NCBI RefSeq assembly: GCF_009765165.1
Contig: NZ_VLNU01000001.1
Span: forward strand, 2,858,247 to 2,922,246
Reading direction: 5' to 3'
Source: Lysobacter panacisoli
GTDB taxonomy: Bacteria; Pseudomonadota; Gammaproteobacteria; Xanthomonadales; Xanthomonadaceae
Length of the DNA stretch: 64,000 bases
Positions 6,834 to 57,817 of the stretch are shown here, in pieces. Position numbers and translations under genes: made by a program. Within the stretch, counting starts at the first letter, position 1; each line of letters starts with the position of its first letter. The notes under the pieces are model-generated. The model did not search any database and was not told the DNA's origin. It was given only the letters and a program-made list of their open reading frames with translations.

Positions 6834-7304
6834 TCATGCCTGGGGACGCCACACCATCGGCGTGGACGGGATGCCGCGCTCGCGATCTTCCTCGCCGACG
6901 GCCTGGAAGCCGAGTCGCCGATACACCTCCAGCGCATGGCGCGAGGCGTTGACCGTCACCGGTGCGGCGGGATCGGCATGCGCGCGTACCGCTTCCCAGA
7001 GCCAGCGGGCGATACCGGAACGTTGCGCGTCCTCGCGCACGAACAGGTGATACAGGTGCGAAGGCAGGCGCAATGCGGCGACGCCGACGATCTCACCGTC
7101 GCGTTCGGCGACGAGGTAGCGATGACCGTCGCGCAGGCGTTCGGCGGTAGGCGCTTCGGCCATCGAATCGAGCAGTTCCGCCGCACCTTCCGTGGTGCAG
7201 TCGCCGGCGATCCAGCGCTGCGTGAGACCGACGACCAGCGCGCTGATCGCGGTGGCATCGGCCGGCACCGCGTCGCGCACGATGATGCCGTCAGCCGCCG
7301 TCAT
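6834..7304 (-). CDS. GNAT family N-acetyltransferase
   Basis: A GNAT acetyltransferase of about 156 residues. It begins [18 protein letters not shown], has the central strand [11 protein letters not shown] and the acetyl-CoA loop [18 protein letters not shown], and ends with [19 protein letters not shown], so all four GNAT motifs are present. The substrate cannot be predicted. I chose the ATG at 7304; an ATG at 7319 adds five residues and is equally possible, since neither has a clear ribosome site. The start lies inside the end of greB, suggesting coupling. Confidence 0.88.
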
Positions 7305-49234: not shown

Positions 49235-49311
49235 TGCGGGGTGGAGCAGTCTGGCAGCTCGTCGGGCTCATAACCCGAAGGTCGCAGGTTCAAATCCTGC
49301 CCCCGCTACCA
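49235..49311 (+). tRNA. tRNA-fMet(CAT), also left attachment site of the prophage
   Basis: A 77-nt initiator tRNA with encoded CCA. The anticodon arm TCGGG-CTCATAA-CCCGA has the three G-C pairs typical of initiators and gives CAT. The first acceptor pair (1:72) is mismatched, the key initiator feature; here it is T-T rather than the C-A of E. coli. The serine integrase gene is read antisense into positions 49,268-49,311. In E. coli the equivalent tRNA (metY) lies just before rimP-nusA-infB, so those genes are expected on the far side of the prophage. Confidence 0.96.
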
Positions 49312-50800
49312 CATTTGAAGCATCAGACGGAACGGCGATCTCTGCAAAGAGGTCGCCGTTTTTGTTTATGACTCTGGCATGCGCACCGAGAAGCTCTCGC
49401 ACTGCCGCGCGAGCCGCTGGGACGTCTCTGGCGCTGTCCGCGAGAGACGTGGTGAGGCGATGCCAGGTCTCGCGAGCACGCGGCAAGATTTGCTCTGGCT
49501 GAAGCTGTCGAGCATGGCGCAGGGCTATCTCTGCGTCCTGCACTGCTCGCTCCGATGCGATCAACTCAGACTTGGTGCTGGGCGTGAGGACTCCTGCCTT
49601 GATAGCGCGCATTACGTTCTCACGAATTCGTTCAGCCTCCGCCACTCGCCGTTTAGCAGCGTCCAGATTCGGGCCTGCGCTTTTCAGGGCAATCGCTGTC
49701 ACCTGCTCAAAACGCTGGAACGCCTCCTCCGTGAGGATCTCTTCCCGGATGCCGGCCAAGAGCCGCTCTTCGGCCACCACGCGGCGGAGCCGTACTTTGC
49801 TAGCGCATGTACCACGGTCGCGAGCAATTGAACACGCGTAGTTGTACTTATCGACCACGACCATTGGGCCGCCGCACTCGCCACAGCGCAGCAGGCCGCT
49901 TAGAAGGTGTCTTGGCGGCCGACCGGGGCCCGGTTTCCCGCTGTCCTTCCCACGCACGCCCATGCGTGCCTGTGCGGCGCACCAAGTCGCCAAATCGATG
50001 ATCGCCAGCTCAGGGTGCTCAGTGGTCACCCATTCTTCGCAGGGACGCTCCTGGCGCACGCGACGGCCGGTATCGGGATGCTTGATCCAGCGGCTCCGGT
50101 TCCAGACCTGGCGGCCTACATAGATGGGGTTCGCGAGGATGCCAATCCCGCGGCGCAGATCTCCATGTATCGCGGTCATTGCCCACGACGAGCCACGGGA
50201 GGACGGGATGCCATCGCGGTTGAGGCCGGCCGCGATCGCACGAGGGCTAAGGCCGTCAATGAACTCGGCGAAGATCCGGCGCACAACGTTGGCCTGTGCC
50301 TCGTCGATGGCGCGCTGACCCACACTCGTGACCGTGTAGCCGTAGGGCAGGCCACCAGCGCTCGCGCCGGCCAGTGCGCGTCCTGTGAGGCCTCTGTGGG
50401 TCTTCTCCCTGAGGTCGTCGAGGTAGAGCTCGCCCATGATCCCGCGGAGCCCTACCTCAGCCGTATGCCCCTTCCGAGCCGTGTCCACTCCATCGCTAAC
50501 ACCAATCAGGCGGACGCCCGCGAAGGTCAGCCGTTTTACCTGGCGTTGCGCCTCGACGCTGTCACGGCTCAAGCGAGAGAGGTCGTCGACGAGGATGACG
50601 TCGTATCGCTCAGCCTTCGCGAGGAGCGCGCGGTATCCGGGGCGGTCGAGCCGCGCGCCGCTGATGGCCGCATCGGTGTAGATCGTGGGCTCCGGCCATC
50701 CCTGCCGTTCGCAGTAGGCGCGGCAATTGCGGAGCTGGTCTTCCAGGCTGGCCGCCCGTTGCTGGTCCGAGCTGTAGCGCGCGTAGGCTGCCGTTCGCAT
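49268..50800 (-). CDS. large serine recombinase (phage integrase)
   Basis: A 510-residue large serine integrase. The resolvase catalytic domain (about 3-145) starts AAYARYSSDQQ with nucleophile S10; a recombinase domain (about 165-270, GLPYGYTVTS ... SPRAIAAGLNRDGIPS) and a zinc ribbon (LLRCGECGGPM ... CSIARDRGTC) follow, then a coiled-coil segment. The last codons (AGAGFEPATFGL) are encoded antisense within tRNA-fMet and the stop codon overlaps the anticodon. This marks attL. The integrase inserts or, with a helper, excises the phage. Confidence 0.94.
   Translation of the reverse strand: MRTAAYARYSSDQQRAASLEDQLRNCRAYCERQGWPEPTIYTDAAISGARLDRPGYRALLAKAERYDVILVDDLSRLSRDSVEAQRQVKRLTFAGVRLIGVSDGVDTARKGHTAEVGLRGIMGELYLDDLREKTHRGLTGRALAGASAGGLPYGYTVTSVGQRAIDEAQANVVRRIFAEFIDGLSPRAIAAGLNRDGIPSSRGSSWAMTAIHGDLRRGIGILANPIYVGRQVWNRSRWIKHPDTGRRVRQERPCEEWVTTEHPELAIIDLATWCAAQARMGVRGKDSGKPGPGRPPRHLLSGLLRCGECGGPMVVVDKYNYACSIARDRGTCASKVRLRRVVAEERLLAGIREEILTEEAFQRFEQVTAIALKSAGPNLDAAKRRVAEAERIRENVMRAIKAGVLTPSTKSELIASERAVQDAEIALRHARQLQPEQILPRARETWHRLTTSLADSARDVPAARAAVRELLGAHARVINKNGDLFAEIAVPSDASNVVAGAGFEPATFGL
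49331..49366 (+). terminator. strong intrinsic terminator downstream of tRNA-fMet, inside int
   Basis: A 13-bp stem (AACGGCGATCTCT / AGAGGTCGCCGTT, one G-T) with GCAA loop and five T residues lies 20 nt after the tRNA on the plus strand. It falls in the coding sequence for the integrase C-terminus on the other strand. It is phage DNA that now terminates the host tRNA transcript. Confidence 0.85.
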
Positions 50801-52927: not shown

Positions 52928-52968
52928 AGTAAAGCATCGCTTTATCTCGGCTGTCAAGCAATGCTTGA
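52928..52968 (-). promoter_or_regulatory. left operator/promoter (oL/pL-like) with two 15-bp palindromes
   Basis: Two palindromes, TAAAGCATCGCTTTA (52,930-52,944) and TCAAGCAATGCTTGA (52,954-52,968), share the pattern TNAAGC-N3-GCTTNA and have centres 24 bp apart. On the minus strand TTGACA (52,957-52,952), 18 nt, TTTACT (52,933-52,928) forms a promoter overlapped by both. It would drive the two leftward early genes and be shut by CI or Cro. Confidence 0.75.
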
Positions 52969-52969
52969 T

Positions 52970-53542
52970 TCAGCCCTCCCAGCTCCCGATCCACCGGACC
53001 CGGCCAAGAATGGTGATGGGGTGATGCGAGTCTTCCATCTTCCGCGGCTTCGACCAAGCAGGGTCCGATGCGGGGTTGAGGGCATCGAAGAATGTGTCGC
53101 CTCCGAGTTCGACGCAGCGTTTCACCGTCGGGCTTTCGTTCCCGAGTCCCGCTGCCACGACCACAAACAGACGGCCATCCTCCGGTATGCGATCCTCCGG
53201 ATCGTAAAGCGCTGAGTCTCCGGGGTTGAGCCTGGGGAGCATGGTGGAGCTCTCCTCGCGGATTACAGCTAAATTGCCCGGAAGCCTGCCCAAGATTGCC
53301 CCCCAGTCCCCCTGGGGCGGCTCCTGCTCGCCGGTCAAGAAGTAGTGGACCGACCGGCCTGACATCAAGGCAAGTCCTGCCAAGGATTTCTTGCCAATCC
53401 GACCCGTGGATTCCCACCCGGTAACGGCTTGTGGGCTCACGCCAAGCCGATCTGCGACCTCGCTCTTCGAATAAGGGAGGTCGGCAATGGCCTTCTTTAG
53501 CCGCTCGGCCACAGCTGCGTTGTCGGTTGAGATATCAAGCAT
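52970..53542 (-). CDS. CI-like phage repressor (XRE HTH plus S24-like domain)
   Basis: A 190-residue repressor. The HTH is at about residues 25-48 (KSEVADRLGVSPQAVTGWE). The C-terminal half resembles the LexA/CI S24 domain: STMLPRLNPGDSALYDP followed by DGRLFVVVAAG and TVKRC. The Lys of the dyad is K141; the nucleophile position appears to be T100 rather than Ser, with a Ser one residue before. Operators flank the gene on both sides. The start codon itself lies in an operator-like ATGCTTGAT. Confidence 0.88.
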   Translation of the reverse strand: MLDISTDNAAVAERLKKAIADLPYSKSEVADRLGVSPQAVTGWESTGRIGKKSLAGLALMSGRSVHYFLTGEQEPPQGDWGAILGRLPGNLAVIREESSTMLPRLNPGDSALYDPEDRIPEDGRLFVVVAAGLGNESPTVKRCVELGGDTFFDALNPASDPAWSKPRKMEDSHHPITILGRVRWIGSWEG

Positions 53543-53637
53543 AAGTTGATGATTGTCCGCAATATGAAGGTCTGTCAACAAAAAATGCTTGATCGACGAA
53601 TCAAGGGATGCTTTAATTCGCTTCATGGATGCTTTAT
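53535..53637. promoter_or_regulatory. right operator region (oR) between cI and cro
   Basis: Operator-like 15-mers fitting TNAAGC-N3-GCTTNA with decreasing match occur at 53,601-53,615 (TCAAGGGATGCTTTA), 53,578-53,592, 53,622-53,636 and, on the cI side, 53,535-53,549. Their centres are 21-23 bp apart near cro. For cro, TTGATC (53,590-53,595), 16 nt, TTTAAT (53,612-53,617) is a good promoter. For cI, TTGACA on the minus strand (53,578-53,573) with AATCAT 18 nt on is a candidate. Confidence 0.7.
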
Positions 53638-53876
53638 CTCGCGCAATCGCCGCAAGCGGCGGCAAGCAGAAGGGACTGGCGGAGGCGCTGGGCATCACTG
53701 CTCAGGCGCTTAACCAGTGGATTAGGGCCGGGAAGCCAGTTCCGCCGAAGCATTGCCCCCGCATTGAGGGCGAGACCGGGGTCCGGTGCGAGGAGCTCCG
53801 CCCCGATCTGACTTGGGTGCGCGGGGGCGACGGCGCGGTACTCGCATATCAAGTGCAGCTCTACGTAGACAACTAA
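53625..53876 (+). CDS. Cro/YdaS-like regulator
   Basis: An 83-residue HTH protein: KQKGLAEALGITAQALNQWIRAGKPVPPKHCPRIEGETGV matches the YdaS/Cro antitoxin-like regulators of lambdoid prophages. It is divergent from cI, the position of cro. The ATG at 53,625 is chosen; a TTG at 53,589 would add 12 residues but lies upstream of the predicted transcription start. There is no Shine-Dalgarno, and the transcript may be leaderless. Confidence 0.85.
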   Translation: MDALSRAIAASGGKQKGLAEALGITAQALNQWIRAGKPVPPKHCPRIEGETGVRCEELRPDLTWVRGGDGAVLAYQVQLYVDN

Positions 53877-53884
53877 AGCGGCCG

Positions 53885-54067
53885 ATGTCGCTGGAGGGCG
53901 CGGTCGTGGCAGGTGAGATCTACGTGGACGCTTCCTCGGCCTTGGGTGCGGTCCTTGTCGATCGCGCAATTCGCGGTGCGGCTTCAGATGTCGAGGCGAT
54001 GCCTCAAGGGTCTCGGCAAGTTCGTGTGACACGGTCGTTGCTCATGGCTGACGGCTTTTTTTTGTAG
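53885..54067 (+). CDS. possible small phage protein
   Basis: A 60-residue reading frame (MSLEGAVVAGEIYVDASSAL ...) starting eight nt after cro. It has no recognisable domain and a weak ribosome site, so it may not be expressed. The 3' end GGCTTTTTTTTGTAG has a T-run that could be a terminator following a weak stem. Confidence 0.35.
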   Translation: MSLEGAVVAGEIYVDASSALGAVLVDRAIRGAASDVEAMPQGSRQVRVTRSLLMADGFFL

Positions 54068-54118
54068 CCGCACAAGGCTGTCCCACGCCGTCCCACGGCG
54101 GGGGAACGAGAGGGAAAG

Positions 54119-54505
54119 ATGCAAATTCCGCTGTTCTACGACACCTACGAAGACGCTATCCGGGACACGGTCCAGGCGCTCGGTGGCTTCAAGAAGGTGG
54201 GCTCAATGCTCTGGCCCGCGGTAGCTGCAGATGACGCTGGCCGGAAGCTCGCCGCCTGCCTGAATCAGGACAAGCGCGAAAAGCTCGACCTCGGTGAATT
54301 GCGTCTGATTCGACGCGAGGCCCGCAAGGTGGGGGTGCACATCCTTGCCGCCTACGAAGCGCGGGACTCGGGCTATGCCGATCCGCAGCCGATCGCACCT
54401 GAAGACGAAGCCGCCCAGTTGAAGCGGGAGTTCATCACCGCGGTGAAGGCGCTCGAAACGATCCAGGCCCGAATGGGCCGGAGCGCATTGCTCGGGGATA
54501 CCTGA
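54119..54505 (+). CDS. CII-like phage regulator (CP76-type)
   Basis: A 128-residue protein. The region YEDAIRDTVQALGGFKKVGSMLWPAVAADDAGRKLAACLN followed by DLGELRLIRREARKVG resembles phage regulatory protein CII of the CP76 group. Position after cro and before the replication genes fits cII. The start has a good GAGAGGGAAAG ribosome site. The C-terminal helix (QLKREFITAVKALETIQARM) may allow oligomerisation. The family link is by eye. Confidence 0.65.
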   Translation: MQIPLFYDTYEDAIRDTVQALGGFKKVGSMLWPAVAADDAGRKLAACLNQDKREKLDLGELRLIRREARKVGVHILAAYEARDSGYADPQPIAPEDEAAQLKREFITAVKALETIQARMGRSALLGDT

Positions 54506-54669
54506 GATGCAAATGGCGGGATTGCGCGGTCGGCAATCCGTCAAATGGTCGAGGGAACCTGACCCGCAGTAGTAGCAAGGGTAGGGCAGCACCGGCACGC
54601 AAAGGGGCACGCCGGTTGAAGGAGGCAGTAAAGGACGCCCCTCAAATCGCCATCTAGAGGCAACCGATC

Positions 54670-55140
54670 ATGTTTGTGATTCCCCATCTCGTAAAAGCCC
54701 TCCGACGAATCCTCAGCCGCTCAGTCCCGGCAGAGGCCGTCGTCACCGCCCCGCCAGCCCGTCCGATCGCGCCGCCAGTTCTTCGCGCGCTCAGACCAAA
54801 GACCGCCCCGCCGCGCGATCCCGCAAACGATGGAGACGTCGGCACGCAGCACGTCTCCGATGTCATGGACAAGGTCATGCGCGAACTGCGACTCCGCAGA
54901 GACCGCCCATTGGTTCGGGTCAACGAGGAGCCATCCGCAGTCAACGGATACGCCATCGGCTTTGTCTTCGCCGACCGCGTCCACGGCGGCTTCGAGTACG
55001 ACTTCTACTGCCGAAGCCCTCTCGACGCCTTGGACTGGGTACGCCAGACGGCGGGCAAGACCTGGGTCACGACCGAGCACTTGGAACAGTTCGCTGACCT
55101 GGCCCTCTCGCGTTTCGACCCTCCGCGCAAAGCTGCCTAG
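54670..55140 (+). CDS. phage protein, unknown
   Basis: A 156-residue protein. An Ala/Pro-rich segment (about residues 18-50) joins a basic N-terminus to a compact C-terminal domain with NGYAIGFVFADRVHGGFEYDFYCRSPLDALDWV. I do not recognise it. It lies directly before the replication protein gene; the 164-nt gap upstream holds no credible gene. Confidence 0.65.
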   Translation: MFVIPHLVKALRRILSRSVPAEAVVTAPPARPIAPPVLRALRPKTAPPRDPANDGDVGTQHVSDVMDKVMRELRLRRDRPLVRVNEEPSAVNGYAIGFVFADRVHGGFEYDFYCRSPLDALDWVRQTAGKTWVTTEHLEQFADLALSRFDPPRKAA

Positions 55141-55154
55141 GAACCTGCAGTCCC

Positions 55155-56021
55155 GTGAAGACCGACATTCGCATCAATACCGAGTTGTTCGCGCACCCAA
55201 AATACAAGCGGCTGCTGCGACGACTAAGTTGGTGCGGCTGCGCTCACTTGCCTCATCTCTTTGCATGGGCAGCGGCGAACAGGCCGGACGGCGACTTGTC
55301 CGGTCTCACCGACGAAGACCTCGAACTTGCTGTGAACTACCCGCCCGGCCAAGGGGCATTCATCGCGATTCTCGCGGAAATTGGCTTCCTGGAGGGAGAG
55401 GAGGGCGCTCGCCAAATCCATGACTGGGCGGAGCATCAGCCGTGGGCGTCAGGCAGCTCGCTTCGTGCGGCAAGGGGCAAGTGGAACTCCATCAAGCGTC
55501 ATCACGGCGAAGCTGAGGCAGATCGCCAAGTGCCTGAATGGGCTGCTCGGAGGAATGCAGACAGCAGCAAAATCGATGCTGCTAGCAATGCTAATAGCAA
55601 TGCAGACAGCCTGCTGCCAGCAATGCTAGGGAACGGCTGTAGCAATGCTCCATATCCGTCTCCGTCTCCGTCTCCGTCTCCGTCTCCAAAAGCAAGAGCT
55701 ATTGCGCAGCAAGCTGCGCGAAGTGGTCGGTCGCGAGTCGCGTACACGGAAACCTTCGAGCGCTTCTGGGCGGCTTACCCCAATCGCAAGGGCAAGGCCG
55801 TGGCTTTCAAGGCCTGGGTGAAGCTCCAGCTCGACAGCGAAGTGGAGGCGTTGATCACTGACGTGACGGCGAGACACGCACGCGATCGTGACTGGCTGCG
55901 TGATGGCGGAGCGTACATCCCGCATGGCTCCACCTACCTCGCCCAACGGCGCTGGGAGGACGAGATCACATCCGATGGTCCCGGCTCACGGTCGGTCGAG
56001 GCTTGGGAGATTGCGGAATGA
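55155..56021 (+). CDS. phage replication initiator-like protein (lambda O analogue by position)
   Basis: A 288-residue protein. The N-terminal domain (MKTDIRINTELFAHPKYKRLLRRL ... LPHLFAWAAANRPDGDLSGLTDEDLELAV) is of the type found in phage replication proteins. A low-complexity middle (SNANSNAD and repeated PS) leads to a C-terminal TFERFWAAYPNRKGKAVAFKAWVKL domain typical of phage helicase-loading replication proteins. The middle coincides with DNA repeats that look like an origin. GTG start at 55,155; its stop overlaps the next start (ATGA). Confidence 0.8.
   Translation: MKTDIRINTELFAHPKYKRLLRRLSWCGCAHLPHLFAWAAANRPDGDLSGLTDEDLELAVNYPPGQGAFIAILAEIGFLEGEEGARQIHDWAEHQPWASGSSLRAARGKWNSIKRHHGEAEADRQVPEWAARRNADSSKIDAASNANSNADSLLPAMLGNGCSNAPYPSPSPSPSPSPKARAIAQQAARSGRSRVAYTETFERFWAAYPNRKGKAVAFKAWVKLQLDSEVEALITDVTARHARDRDWLRDGGAYIPHGSTYLAQRRWEDEITSDGPGSRSVEAWEIAE
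55584..55719. repeat. iteron-like repeats, candidate replication origin
   Basis: Copies of AGCAATGCT lie at 55,584, 55,619 and 55,641, with an 8/9 copy (AGCAATGCA) at 55,596. Next is a TCCGTC tandem repeat of 5.5 units (55,655-55,687), an A-rich CCAAAAGCAAGAGCTATT and a palindrome GCGCAGC-AA-GCTGCGC (55,704-55,719). All lie within the replication gene, as lambda ori lies within gene O. Confidence 0.6.
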
Positions 56022-57817
56022 AGGCTGCCGAGCTCGCCGCGATGCTTGCCCGTGACGCTGAAGGCGTTGCAAAAATACTGCTGCCGAACGGGAAGCGCGA
56101 AGGTGCGGAATGGCGCGCTGGCTCTCTCGACGGTGAGGCCGGCAAGTCGCTGGGCGTCCACCTGACGGGCCAGAAGGCCGGCGTGTTCTGCGACTTCGCC
56201 ACGGGCGAGGGTGGCGATCTGCTGGACCTGTGGGCCGCTGTGCGCGGTGTCGGCATTGGCGAGGCCTGCAATCAGGTGCGCGACTACCTGGGTGTTCGCG
56301 ATGCGCGCGTGGACAATCCGAAGCCGTCGTACAGCCGTCCGAACCGCGATGGTGTGAAAGGGCTGAACCATTCGCACCTGCTGTGGTTGACCGATGAGCG
56401 CGGCCTGTCTGCCGACTCCGTGCGCGCCTACCGCCTCGCCAGCAAGGGTGTGGATGTGGTGTTCCCGTCGCTGGTGGATGGAGAGCTGGTTGCGGCCAAG
56501 TACCGCCGCGTCCCGGACAAGACGTTCCGAGTGGATGCGAACTGCGAACCGGTGCTGTTCGGTTGGCAGGCGATTCCGGCAGCCGCGCGCTCCGTCCTGA
56601 TCGTTGAGGGGGAGTTGGATGCGGTTGCTGCGCACACGTTGGGTCAGCCGGCGCTGTCGGTTCCGTTTGGCGGCGGCACTGGCGATAAGCAGGCGAAGTG
56701 GATTGCTGCAGAGTACGACCGCCTCGCACCGTTCGACCGGATTTACCTGGCCCTCGATACGGACGGACCGGGTCAGGAGGCGACTGCCGAAATCGTGAAG
56801 CGCCTTGGGCGCGAGCGCTGCTACGTGCTTGAGCTACCCCACAAGGACATCAATGCTTGTCTGCTCGCCGGTATGAAGACGGGCGAGCTCGCCGAGCTCG
56901 TGCGACACGCAAAGACGATGGACCCGGAGGCTTTGCGCCAGGCGTCTGAGTTCGGTGAAGAGTTGATCTCAGCTTTCGCGGACAAGCCTGGACAGGAGCG
57001 GGGCATCCGCCTGCCTTGGGACAAGTGCGGTAACGACGTGATTCTCCGCGCCGGCGAGGTGTCGCTGTGGCTGGGCGTCAATGGACACGGCAAATCGCAG
57101 GGGATGGGGCAGGTCACGCTCGGTGCGCTTGTGCGGGAGTTCAACTGCTGCGTTGCTTCGATGGAATTCAAGCCGGTGAACTGGTTGAAGCGCATGGTGC
57201 GTCAAGCAACGGCGACGGAGCAGCCCGCGCCGGCTTACATTCGCCACGTCGCGGCCTGGTTCCACGACAAGCTGTGGGTGTTCGACGCCACTGGTACGGC
57301 GAAAGCCGACCAGATCCTAGAGGTCTTCGCCTACGCCGCACGTCGCTATGGCGTGTACTTCTTCCTGATCGACAACCTGGCTAAGTGCGGGTTCGCGGAG
57401 GACGACTACAACGGCCAGAAGAACTTTGTCGATCGCCTGACCGATTTTGCGAAGGCGTACGGCGTGCACGTTGCTCTAGTGCACCACATGCGGAAGGGCG
57501 AGAGCGAGGACAAGCCTGGCGGAAAGCTCGATGCAAAAGGCTCGGGCGGCATTACGGACATGGTGGACACGTGTGCCGTGTGGTGGCGCAACAAGCCCAA
57601 GGAGAAGTCGCTGAAGGCCGCCCGGATGAAGGGCTTGGAGCCGGACCAGGAAATCGCGGCGAAGCCAGACGCGCTCCTTCTCTTCGACAAGCAGCGAAAC
57701 GGAGAGTGTGAGCCGACGTACGGGCTGTGGTTTGACCAGGCCTCGCTCCAGTTCCTCGGAGGTGAGGATCATCGCCCGTATCGTTTCATCGCGTTCCGAC
57801 AACTGGAGGCTGCATGA
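56018..57817 (+). CDS. phage primase-helicase (TOPRIM plus RecA-like domain)
   Basis: A 599-residue bifunctional protein. The N-terminal primase region (GVFCDFATGEGGDLLDLW) precedes the TOPRIM (VLIVEGELDAVAA with E198; ALDTDGPG with D247 and D249). The C-terminal RecA-like helicase domain has Walker A GVNGHGKS at 353-360 and Walker B near D452 (YFFLIDNL). This is the T7 gp4-like or DnaB-like arrangement. It needs no separate loader in the T7 case; here an O-like gene precedes it. Confidence 0.9.
   Translation: MKAAELAAMLARDAEGVAKILLPNGKREGAEWRAGSLDGEAGKSLGVHLTGQKAGVFCDFATGEGGDLLDLWAAVRGVGIGEACNQVRDYLGVRDARVDNPKPSYSRPNRDGVKGLNHSHLLWLTDERGLSADSVRAYRLASKGVDVVFPSLVDGELVAAKYRRVPDKTFRVDANCEPVLFGWQAIPAAARSVLIVEGELDAVAAHTLGQPALSVPFGGGTGDKQAKWIAAEYDRLAPFDRIYLALDTDGPGQEATAEIVKRLGRERCYVLELPHKDINACLLAGMKTGELAELVRHAKTMDPEALRQASEFGEELISAFADKPGQERGIRLPWDKCGNDVILRAGEVSLWLGVNGHGKSQGMGQVTLGALVREFNCCVASMEFKPVNWLKRMVRQATATEQPAPAYIRHVAAWFHDKLWVFDATGTAKADQILEVFAYAARRYGVYFFLIDNLAKCGFAEDDYNGQKNFVDRLTDFAKAYGVHVALVHHMRKGESEDKPGGKLDAKGSGGITDMVDTCAVWWRNKPKEKSLKAARMKGLEPDQEIAAKPDALLLFDKQRNGECEPTYGLWFDQASLQFLGGEDHRPYRFIAFRQLEAA

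Follow-up and report, generated by a model that had tools for sequence, protein, structure and literature searches.

Why should one and the same 9-bp palindrome stand in the left operator of a phage immunity region and, several times over, inside the replication gene? The question is raised by a 64,000-nucleotide stretch of Lysobacter panacisoli DNA (assembly GCF_009765165.1, contig NZ_VLNU01000001.1, positions 2,858,247 to 2,922,246), here called the window, in which the palindrome AGCAATGCT was noticed from the letters alone. The original prediction took the repetition to be one of DNA rather than of protein, and suggested that the repressor or Cro could bind the origin directly, or that the replication protein could bind the operator. 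According to our analysis the DNA-level repeat stands and marks a probable origin, and the proposed cross-binding does not find support. The repeats in the replication gene are probably iterons of an origin inside that gene, beside a conserved GC-rich tract of which no description was found in the literature we searched.

The repeat array in the initiator gene

The word AGCAATGCT occurs four times in the window, at 52957-52965, 55584-55592, 55619-55627 and 55641-55649, as had been predicted; 0.32 copies are expected in 64 kb, and none of 100 dinucleotide shuffles reached four, which places the copies beyond chance. The whole host genome (3.88 Mb) holds nine, four of them being the window copies and five lying elsewhere, and the same pattern read backwards, taken as a control, also occurs nine times (5 and 4 on the two strands). 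All nine copies of AGCAATGCT in this genome (G000) lie on the plus strand of their contig and none on the minus strand, numbers small enough for chance to be possible.

Three of the copies, and a predicted further one matching at eight of nine positions (AGCAATGCA, 55596-55604), stand in the gene at 55155-56021 (plus strand, GTG start, 288 residues), whose product matches PHROG 9474, 'replication initiation protein' (E 6.9e-38), and PHROG 270 (E 8.4e-20). A Pfam scan of this initiator gave no family at E 0.01, RepA_N included. Its AlphaFold2 model has a mean pLDDT (predicted local distance difference test) of 85.5 and was built on an alignment of 86 sequences, the window's and 85 of the 120 relatives read. 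It predicts an N-terminal domain to about residue 142, a disordered linker of biased residue composition (ten-residue blocks in 141-190 at 47-68) and a C-terminal domain that is confident from about residue 195. Residues 144-165, encoded by the array at 55584-55649, belong to this low-confidence linker. Foldseek returned no match at E 0.001 or better, and the seven hits of a PDB sequence search (E 0.06-0.46) were judged to be chance.

A site matrix built from 70 distinct sites of relatives with TAGCA half-sites (class A), with the window left out, predicts four iterons here, all on the plus strand. Iteron 1 (AGCAATGCT, 55584-55592) has the best score in the window, 27.1; iteron 2 (AGCAATGCA, 55596-55604) follows after 12 bp with 23.0, iteron 3 (AGCAATGCT, 55619-55627) after a further 23 bp with 17.7, and iteron 4 (AGCAATGCT, 55641-55649), 22 bp beyond, has 19.3 and abuts a hexanucleotide tract. 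The next best score, 8.3, belongs to a weak, possibly degenerate site, AGGAATGCA, at 55551-55559 (plus strand). Iteron 3 is read in another frame, as originally noticed: its core at 55620, in frame 0, encodes part of PAML, and the other three, at 55585, 55597 and 55642, share frame 1 and encode SNA.

The array recurs among relatives of the gene. Of 276 proteins that a search returned at E <=0.001, the best 120 were read. For the DNA we used IMG/VR, where 194 loci were confirmed and 80 kept, 38 loci on GTDB genome contigs, and the host family, in which 17 of 297 genomes had a match. Once the window's own copies (L001, L003) were excluded, 124 sequences, the window among them, had an N-terminal match. 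Removal of L021, which is identical to the window, and of four genes read at less than 150 residues left 119 linkers, 106 of them distinct; L133, whose gene is cut, was left out, and the counts below refer to 105 linkers, window included, among which near-copies remain, so that not all counts are independent.

The core GCANTGC is found 231 times in the 16,596 bases of these linkers, against 37 times in the 84,576 bases of the rest of the genes and against a mean of 17.4 and a maximum of 27 in 200 runs of synonymous recoding with each gene's own codon use. At least one core is present in 88/105 linkers; the 17 that lack an intact one belong to remote as well as close members, and nine of them hold at least one TGCYANTRGCA palindrome. 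All three reading frames are used (168/55/8), and 45 of the 67 linkers with at least two cores use more than one. Successive cores keep a lattice: of their 143 spacings, 124 are multiples of 11 to within 1 bp (39 expected), and the autocorrelation of the letters peaks at lags 11, 22 and 33 (z 24, 18 and 15 against codon-order shuffles). The commonest half-site spacings, TGC-N5-GCA (161) and GCA-N-TGC (112), describe alternating arms of TAGCA and TGCTA type. Within 6 kb on either side, cores peak only in the linker's own 500-bp bin (4.6/kb, against 0.35-0.80/kb in the other bins).

The half-sites fall into class A and a class G (TGGCA). Over 94 rows, 11 remote ones having been dropped, NKRHH at residues 111/114-117 goes with 34 A, 3 mixed and no G, and ACKQH, ACKQY or GCKQY with 17 G, 3 mixed and no A; the similar ATKQY and MCKQH are A in 3/3. 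We do not take this as covariation of binding specificity, since the segment lies beside the linker and linkage explains the pattern equally, and a sign test on the 3 independent pairs on supported branches is not significant.

We consider it likely, with good confidence, that the copies at 55584-55649 are iterons of an origin lying in the linker DNA of the phage's own initiator gene, that the array is bound by the initiator's N-terminal domain, and that the left operator copy is a separate CI/Cro site. Besides the array, its lattice, the frame independence, the conservation in the family and the codon bias of the tract, this reading draws on the PHROG match, the neighbouring helicase and the two-domain model with its disordered linker, and on the independence from the immunity region described below. 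The N-terminal domain would bind inverted half-sites (TAGCA and TGCTA) about one helical turn apart, on one face of the helix; occupation of the array would nucleate an initiator-DNA complex beside the tract, the complex may open or mark the DNA there, and the helicase would be loaded from that point, with replication presumably starting at the array.

The CCGTCT tract and the helicase

Iteron 4 is directly followed by the tract at 55650-55687 (plus strand), a divergent unit CCATAT and then five CCGTCT and CC (PYPSPSPSPSPSP). The junction GCANTGC-N-CCGTCT, in which the last core abuts the tract, is present in 74/105 linkers, the window's own first unit being divergent, and CCGTCTCC in 90/105. 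Codon choice in the tracts is nearly fixed, with TCT for 583/587 serines and CCG for 557/587 prolines, against 168/1,465 and 678/1,520 outside linkers and tracts. Over 91 loci the GC content is 61% in the 50 bp that begin with the tract, 63-66% beyond, and 55% in the 100 bp before.

In some DUF1376-type genes the same tract stands behind unrelated repeats that, by eye, recur about every 12 bp. Five loci (L199, L209, L210, L229 and L244) carry such repeats of their own directly upstream of it, the words being GGTTCAACCGT-like in L210 and ATGGCACAGCC-like in L199 and L209. In a DUF1376 scan of tract-bearing proteins 7/7 matched, L210 and L229 among them, and 3 of the seven were over the cut-off; L199, L209 and L244 resemble DUF1376 matches by eye. 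These examples were found through the tract itself, and their codon use is thus selected. The initiator gene studied here is like those of DUF1376 phage initiator-like proteins with PS tracts in having tandem repeats directly upstream of the same tract; it differs in the repeat words, and no homology between the two protein families was detectable (hhalign probability 0.1). DUF1376 is not a general carrier of the tract, as CCGTCTCCGTCT is present in 0/16 DUF1376 loci of 15 host-family genomes. Two of these 16 (L293, L294) hold 2 and 4 GCANTGC cores in the gene and no CCGTCT tract. Among the matches listed for 79 new loci, 21 of the 81 open reading frames read at tracts belong to the initiator family, 4 match it only from residue 104 or later, and among the remaining 56 there are many simple repeats without relation to it.

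It is tempting to suggest, tentatively and as something we hold somewhat less probable than its contrary, that (CCGTCT)n is a new type of GC-rich, strand-asymmetric origin element: an opening or loading site common to phages with unrelated initiators, each with its own iterons, and placed in the linker of the initiator gene. If true, a single coding sequence would combine a protein-binding lattice of 11-12 bp with a loading tract. Exact CCGTCT-repeat strings appeared only in unrelated contexts among the titles checked, and a literature search for PSPSPS with phage and replication initiation protein gave nothing.

Directly downstream of the initiator lies a primase-helicase gene with Toprim and RecA-like parts (56018-57817, plus strand; PHROG 239, E 1.2e-102; Pfam AAA_25 and Toprim_2). 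This module varies among the relatives: 20 of 104 loci have the window's helicase type, 76 have room for it and lack it, and 8 have no room; in many of the 76, among the loci listed, the next gene looks DnaB-like or loader-like by eye. GTC, contained in CCGTCT, is the trinucleotide recognised by the T7 gp4 primase. A role of CCGTCT as a primase site is nevertheless unsupported, only 20/104 relatives' loci having a relative of the Toprim helicase.

The operator copy and the rival explanations

The first copy of the word lies in the immunity region, where a CI-like repressor gene with helix-turn-helix (HTH) and S24 peptidase parts (52970-53542, minus strand; PHROG 4 'transcriptional repressor', E 1.1e-16; weak Phage_CI_repr and Peptidase_S24 matches in Pfam, both below cut-off) diverges from a Cro-like gene of the YdaS/P22 Cro HTH type (53625-53876, plus strand; Pfam YdaS_toxin E 2.1e-18; P22_Cro 7.4e-6, below cut-off). 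Repeated palindromes stand between and beside these genes, and TMAAGSRATGCTTKA is the consensus drawn from the window's own sites. Three putative operators match it at 15/15: the left operator TCAAGCAATGCTTGA (52954-52968, plus strand), a 15-bp palindrome of which AGCAATGCT is the core, as claimed; a second left site TAAAGCGATGCTTTA (52930-52944, minus strand); and a right site TCAAGGGATGCTTTA (53601-53615, plus strand). Two right operator-like sites on the plus strand match at 12/15 and are proposed from their place and spacing, ACAAAAAATGCTTGA (53578-53592) and TTCATGGATGCTTTA (53622-53636), which overlaps the beginning of the Cro-like gene. A further 12/15 match at the CI start, TCAACTTATGCTTGA (53535-53549, minus strand), may be chance. 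The window has other scores of 12 or 13, at 7211, 36847, 39940 and 50071. The two left sites stand 24 bp from each other, and the three right ones succeed each other at 23 and 21 bp. Placed beside and between the two genes, they give a layout like that of the CI-Cro region of lambda and P22, which would be a lambda-like operator set, as judged from sequence; it is unlike them in the operator sequence TMAAGSRATGCTTKA and in the weakness of two right sites.

Could the shared word be functional, with CI or Cro binding the origin and blocking replication in the lysogen, or with the initiator binding the left operator and regulating the left operon? The exact identity of the 9-mer and its palindromic symmetry at both places favour the idea, as does a slight excess of the 9-mer in relatives beyond their linkers, and weak cross-binding to the shared core may occur. 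The word is, however, present in only 1/6 operator-like sites (52954), and there only the core is shared: on the iteron matrix the left operator scores 2.7, with a core of 16.4 and flanks of -13.7, against 27.1, 23.0, 19.3 and 17.7 for the iterons, whose flanks give +1.3 to +10.6, and the four iterons lack the operators' AAGC...GCTT arms. Relatives separate the two elements. In L097, whose CI-like protein shares 23% identity with that of the window over 205 residues, there are five such operators: three stand where the CI-like gene starts and two lie beyond it, about 0.8 kb from its end. One of the five is TCAAGCAATGCTTGA without a mismatch, on the minus strand. The linker of L097 has neither AGCAATGCT nor AGCATTGCT; here, then, a homologous gene lacks the word with the operator kept, though related half-sites, TGCTAGTAGCA and AGCACTGCC, remain in it. 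L065 is the reverse: its operators TAAAGCCCAGCTTTA and TAAAGCTGTGCTTTA lack the 9-mer, its linker holds two AGCAATGCT and one AGCAATGCG, and its CI-like protein is 39% identical to the window's over the HTH part. Identity between L096 and L097 is 94% in the 3.8 kb with the initiator and 92% in a 1.35-kb stretch to the left of the immunity region; between these flanks nothing matches, and L096 has none of these operators. This is a natural immunity swap between phage contigs in which the putative origin stays. The core is not enriched in DNA upstream of the initiator family. A functional link is accordingly very improbable in our view, and the match of operator and iteron is most likely a coincidence, the left operator being a CI/Cro site whose central bases would happen to equal the iteron core. 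Another operator-like palindrome, TTAAGCAATGCTTTA, was seen at about 1728 of L137, a Desulfovibrionaceae contig, some 0.5 kb past a gene that is CI-like by eye; the linker of L137 has no GCANTGC.

Two further explanations leave the operator aside. The linker repeats might be low complexity at the protein level, SNA and PSPS in a flexible spacer, with the DNA word as a by-product, and the disorder and biased composition of the linker would suit this. The reading frame, however, changes within single genes, cores far exceed the synonymous shuffles, proline and serine codons are near-fixed, and, as a period of 11 is not a multiple of the codon, repetition of protein cannot explain the array; we give this explanation hardly any credence. 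It is also conceivable, though unlikely, that what is conserved in the tract, or in the linker as a whole, is a joint for recombination at which phages swap initiator domains, and no part of an origin. The tract does lie at the boundary beyond which the C-terminal domains of relatives differ (alignment A1), and it adjoins unrelated N-terminal modules in some DUF1376-type genes; moreover, half-site class tracks residues 111-117 while as many as 9 changes of class, 3 of them on supported branches, have to be placed on a tree of residues 1-100, a mismatch that suggests module exchange. Such a joint leaves unexplained the 11-bp lattice and the array directly upstream, exchange driven by homology would presumably need no fixed hexamer, and half-site class could equally follow the residue segment through function.

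Some results weigh against the in-gene origin or against its independence from the immunity region. No AT-rich tract lies beside the iterons in the GC profile of the 91 loci. GC skew, tried as proof of an origin, was negative in the circular relative NZ_CP090425, and only 1/12 of the cores of that record is inside its initiator gene. Outside the relatives' linkers the 9-mer is near background, which speaks against the proposed cross-binding, and yet slightly above it, 14 copies against a second-order expectation of 9.05 in 1.13 Mb, and AAGCNNNGCTT is mildly commoner 0.5-3 kb upstream, an excess that is expected if similar operators recur there. NZ_CP090425.1 (L306) is a 42,041-bp circular Stenotrophomonas maltophilia record labelled plasmid; its terminase, capsid, integrase and initiator relative give it the look of a temperate phage that has circularised. 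NZ_CP090426.1 equals it in length and in match.

Beside the immunity region a serine recombinase with Resolvase, Recombinase and zinc-ribbon domains (49268-50800, minus strand) is probably the integrase of the phage.

Known in-gene origins and what the array may mean

In lambdoid phages with an origin in gene O, helicase loading follows binding of the initiator. It would be logical to suggest lambda O and pSK41 Rep as the closest models. The lambdoid origin consists of inverted-repeat iterons in the middle of the initiator gene that are bound by the initiator, four in lambda and six in Stx phages, and the flanking AT-rich tract is described as crucial for unwinding (PMC7466680). The array described here is similar in its repeated inverted-repeat sites inside the initiator gene, and differs in its short cores, its 11-bp lattice, the GC-rich CCGTCT flank in place of an AT-rich one and the absence of a Pfam family. 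In pSK41, a RepA_N plasmid replicon, the origin lies in the linker-encoding part of rep; our array stands in DNA that encodes the predicted linker, and the origin would lie there too. Unlike RepA_N initiators, the present one has no RepA_N domain by sequence (Pfam, E 0.01).

In seven named isolates with C-terminal similarity only, the gene has no CCGTCTCC and at most one GCANTGC. The named Pseudomonas phage phi297 (L307) has overlapping GGGACA-type repeats in the linker-coding part of its replication gene, possibly an in-gene origin of its own. By title or start of abstract, the literature on iterons, in-gene origins, DUF1376 and repressor-origin binding gave nothing on this initiator family; most subscription journals were outside its scope, and we make no claim that the family is missing from print.

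What falls away is an attractive but unsupported connection of immunity with replication, and the question is posed how a GC-rich tract would serve where lambda uses an AT-rich one. The family shows how a coding sequence can carry a putative protein-binding lattice of helical period regardless of the reading frame. The array and its tract would provide a sequence rule for finding origins in a large set of temperate phages for which prophages and metagenomes are the main source, and whose initiators mostly go by the name of hypothetical proteins.

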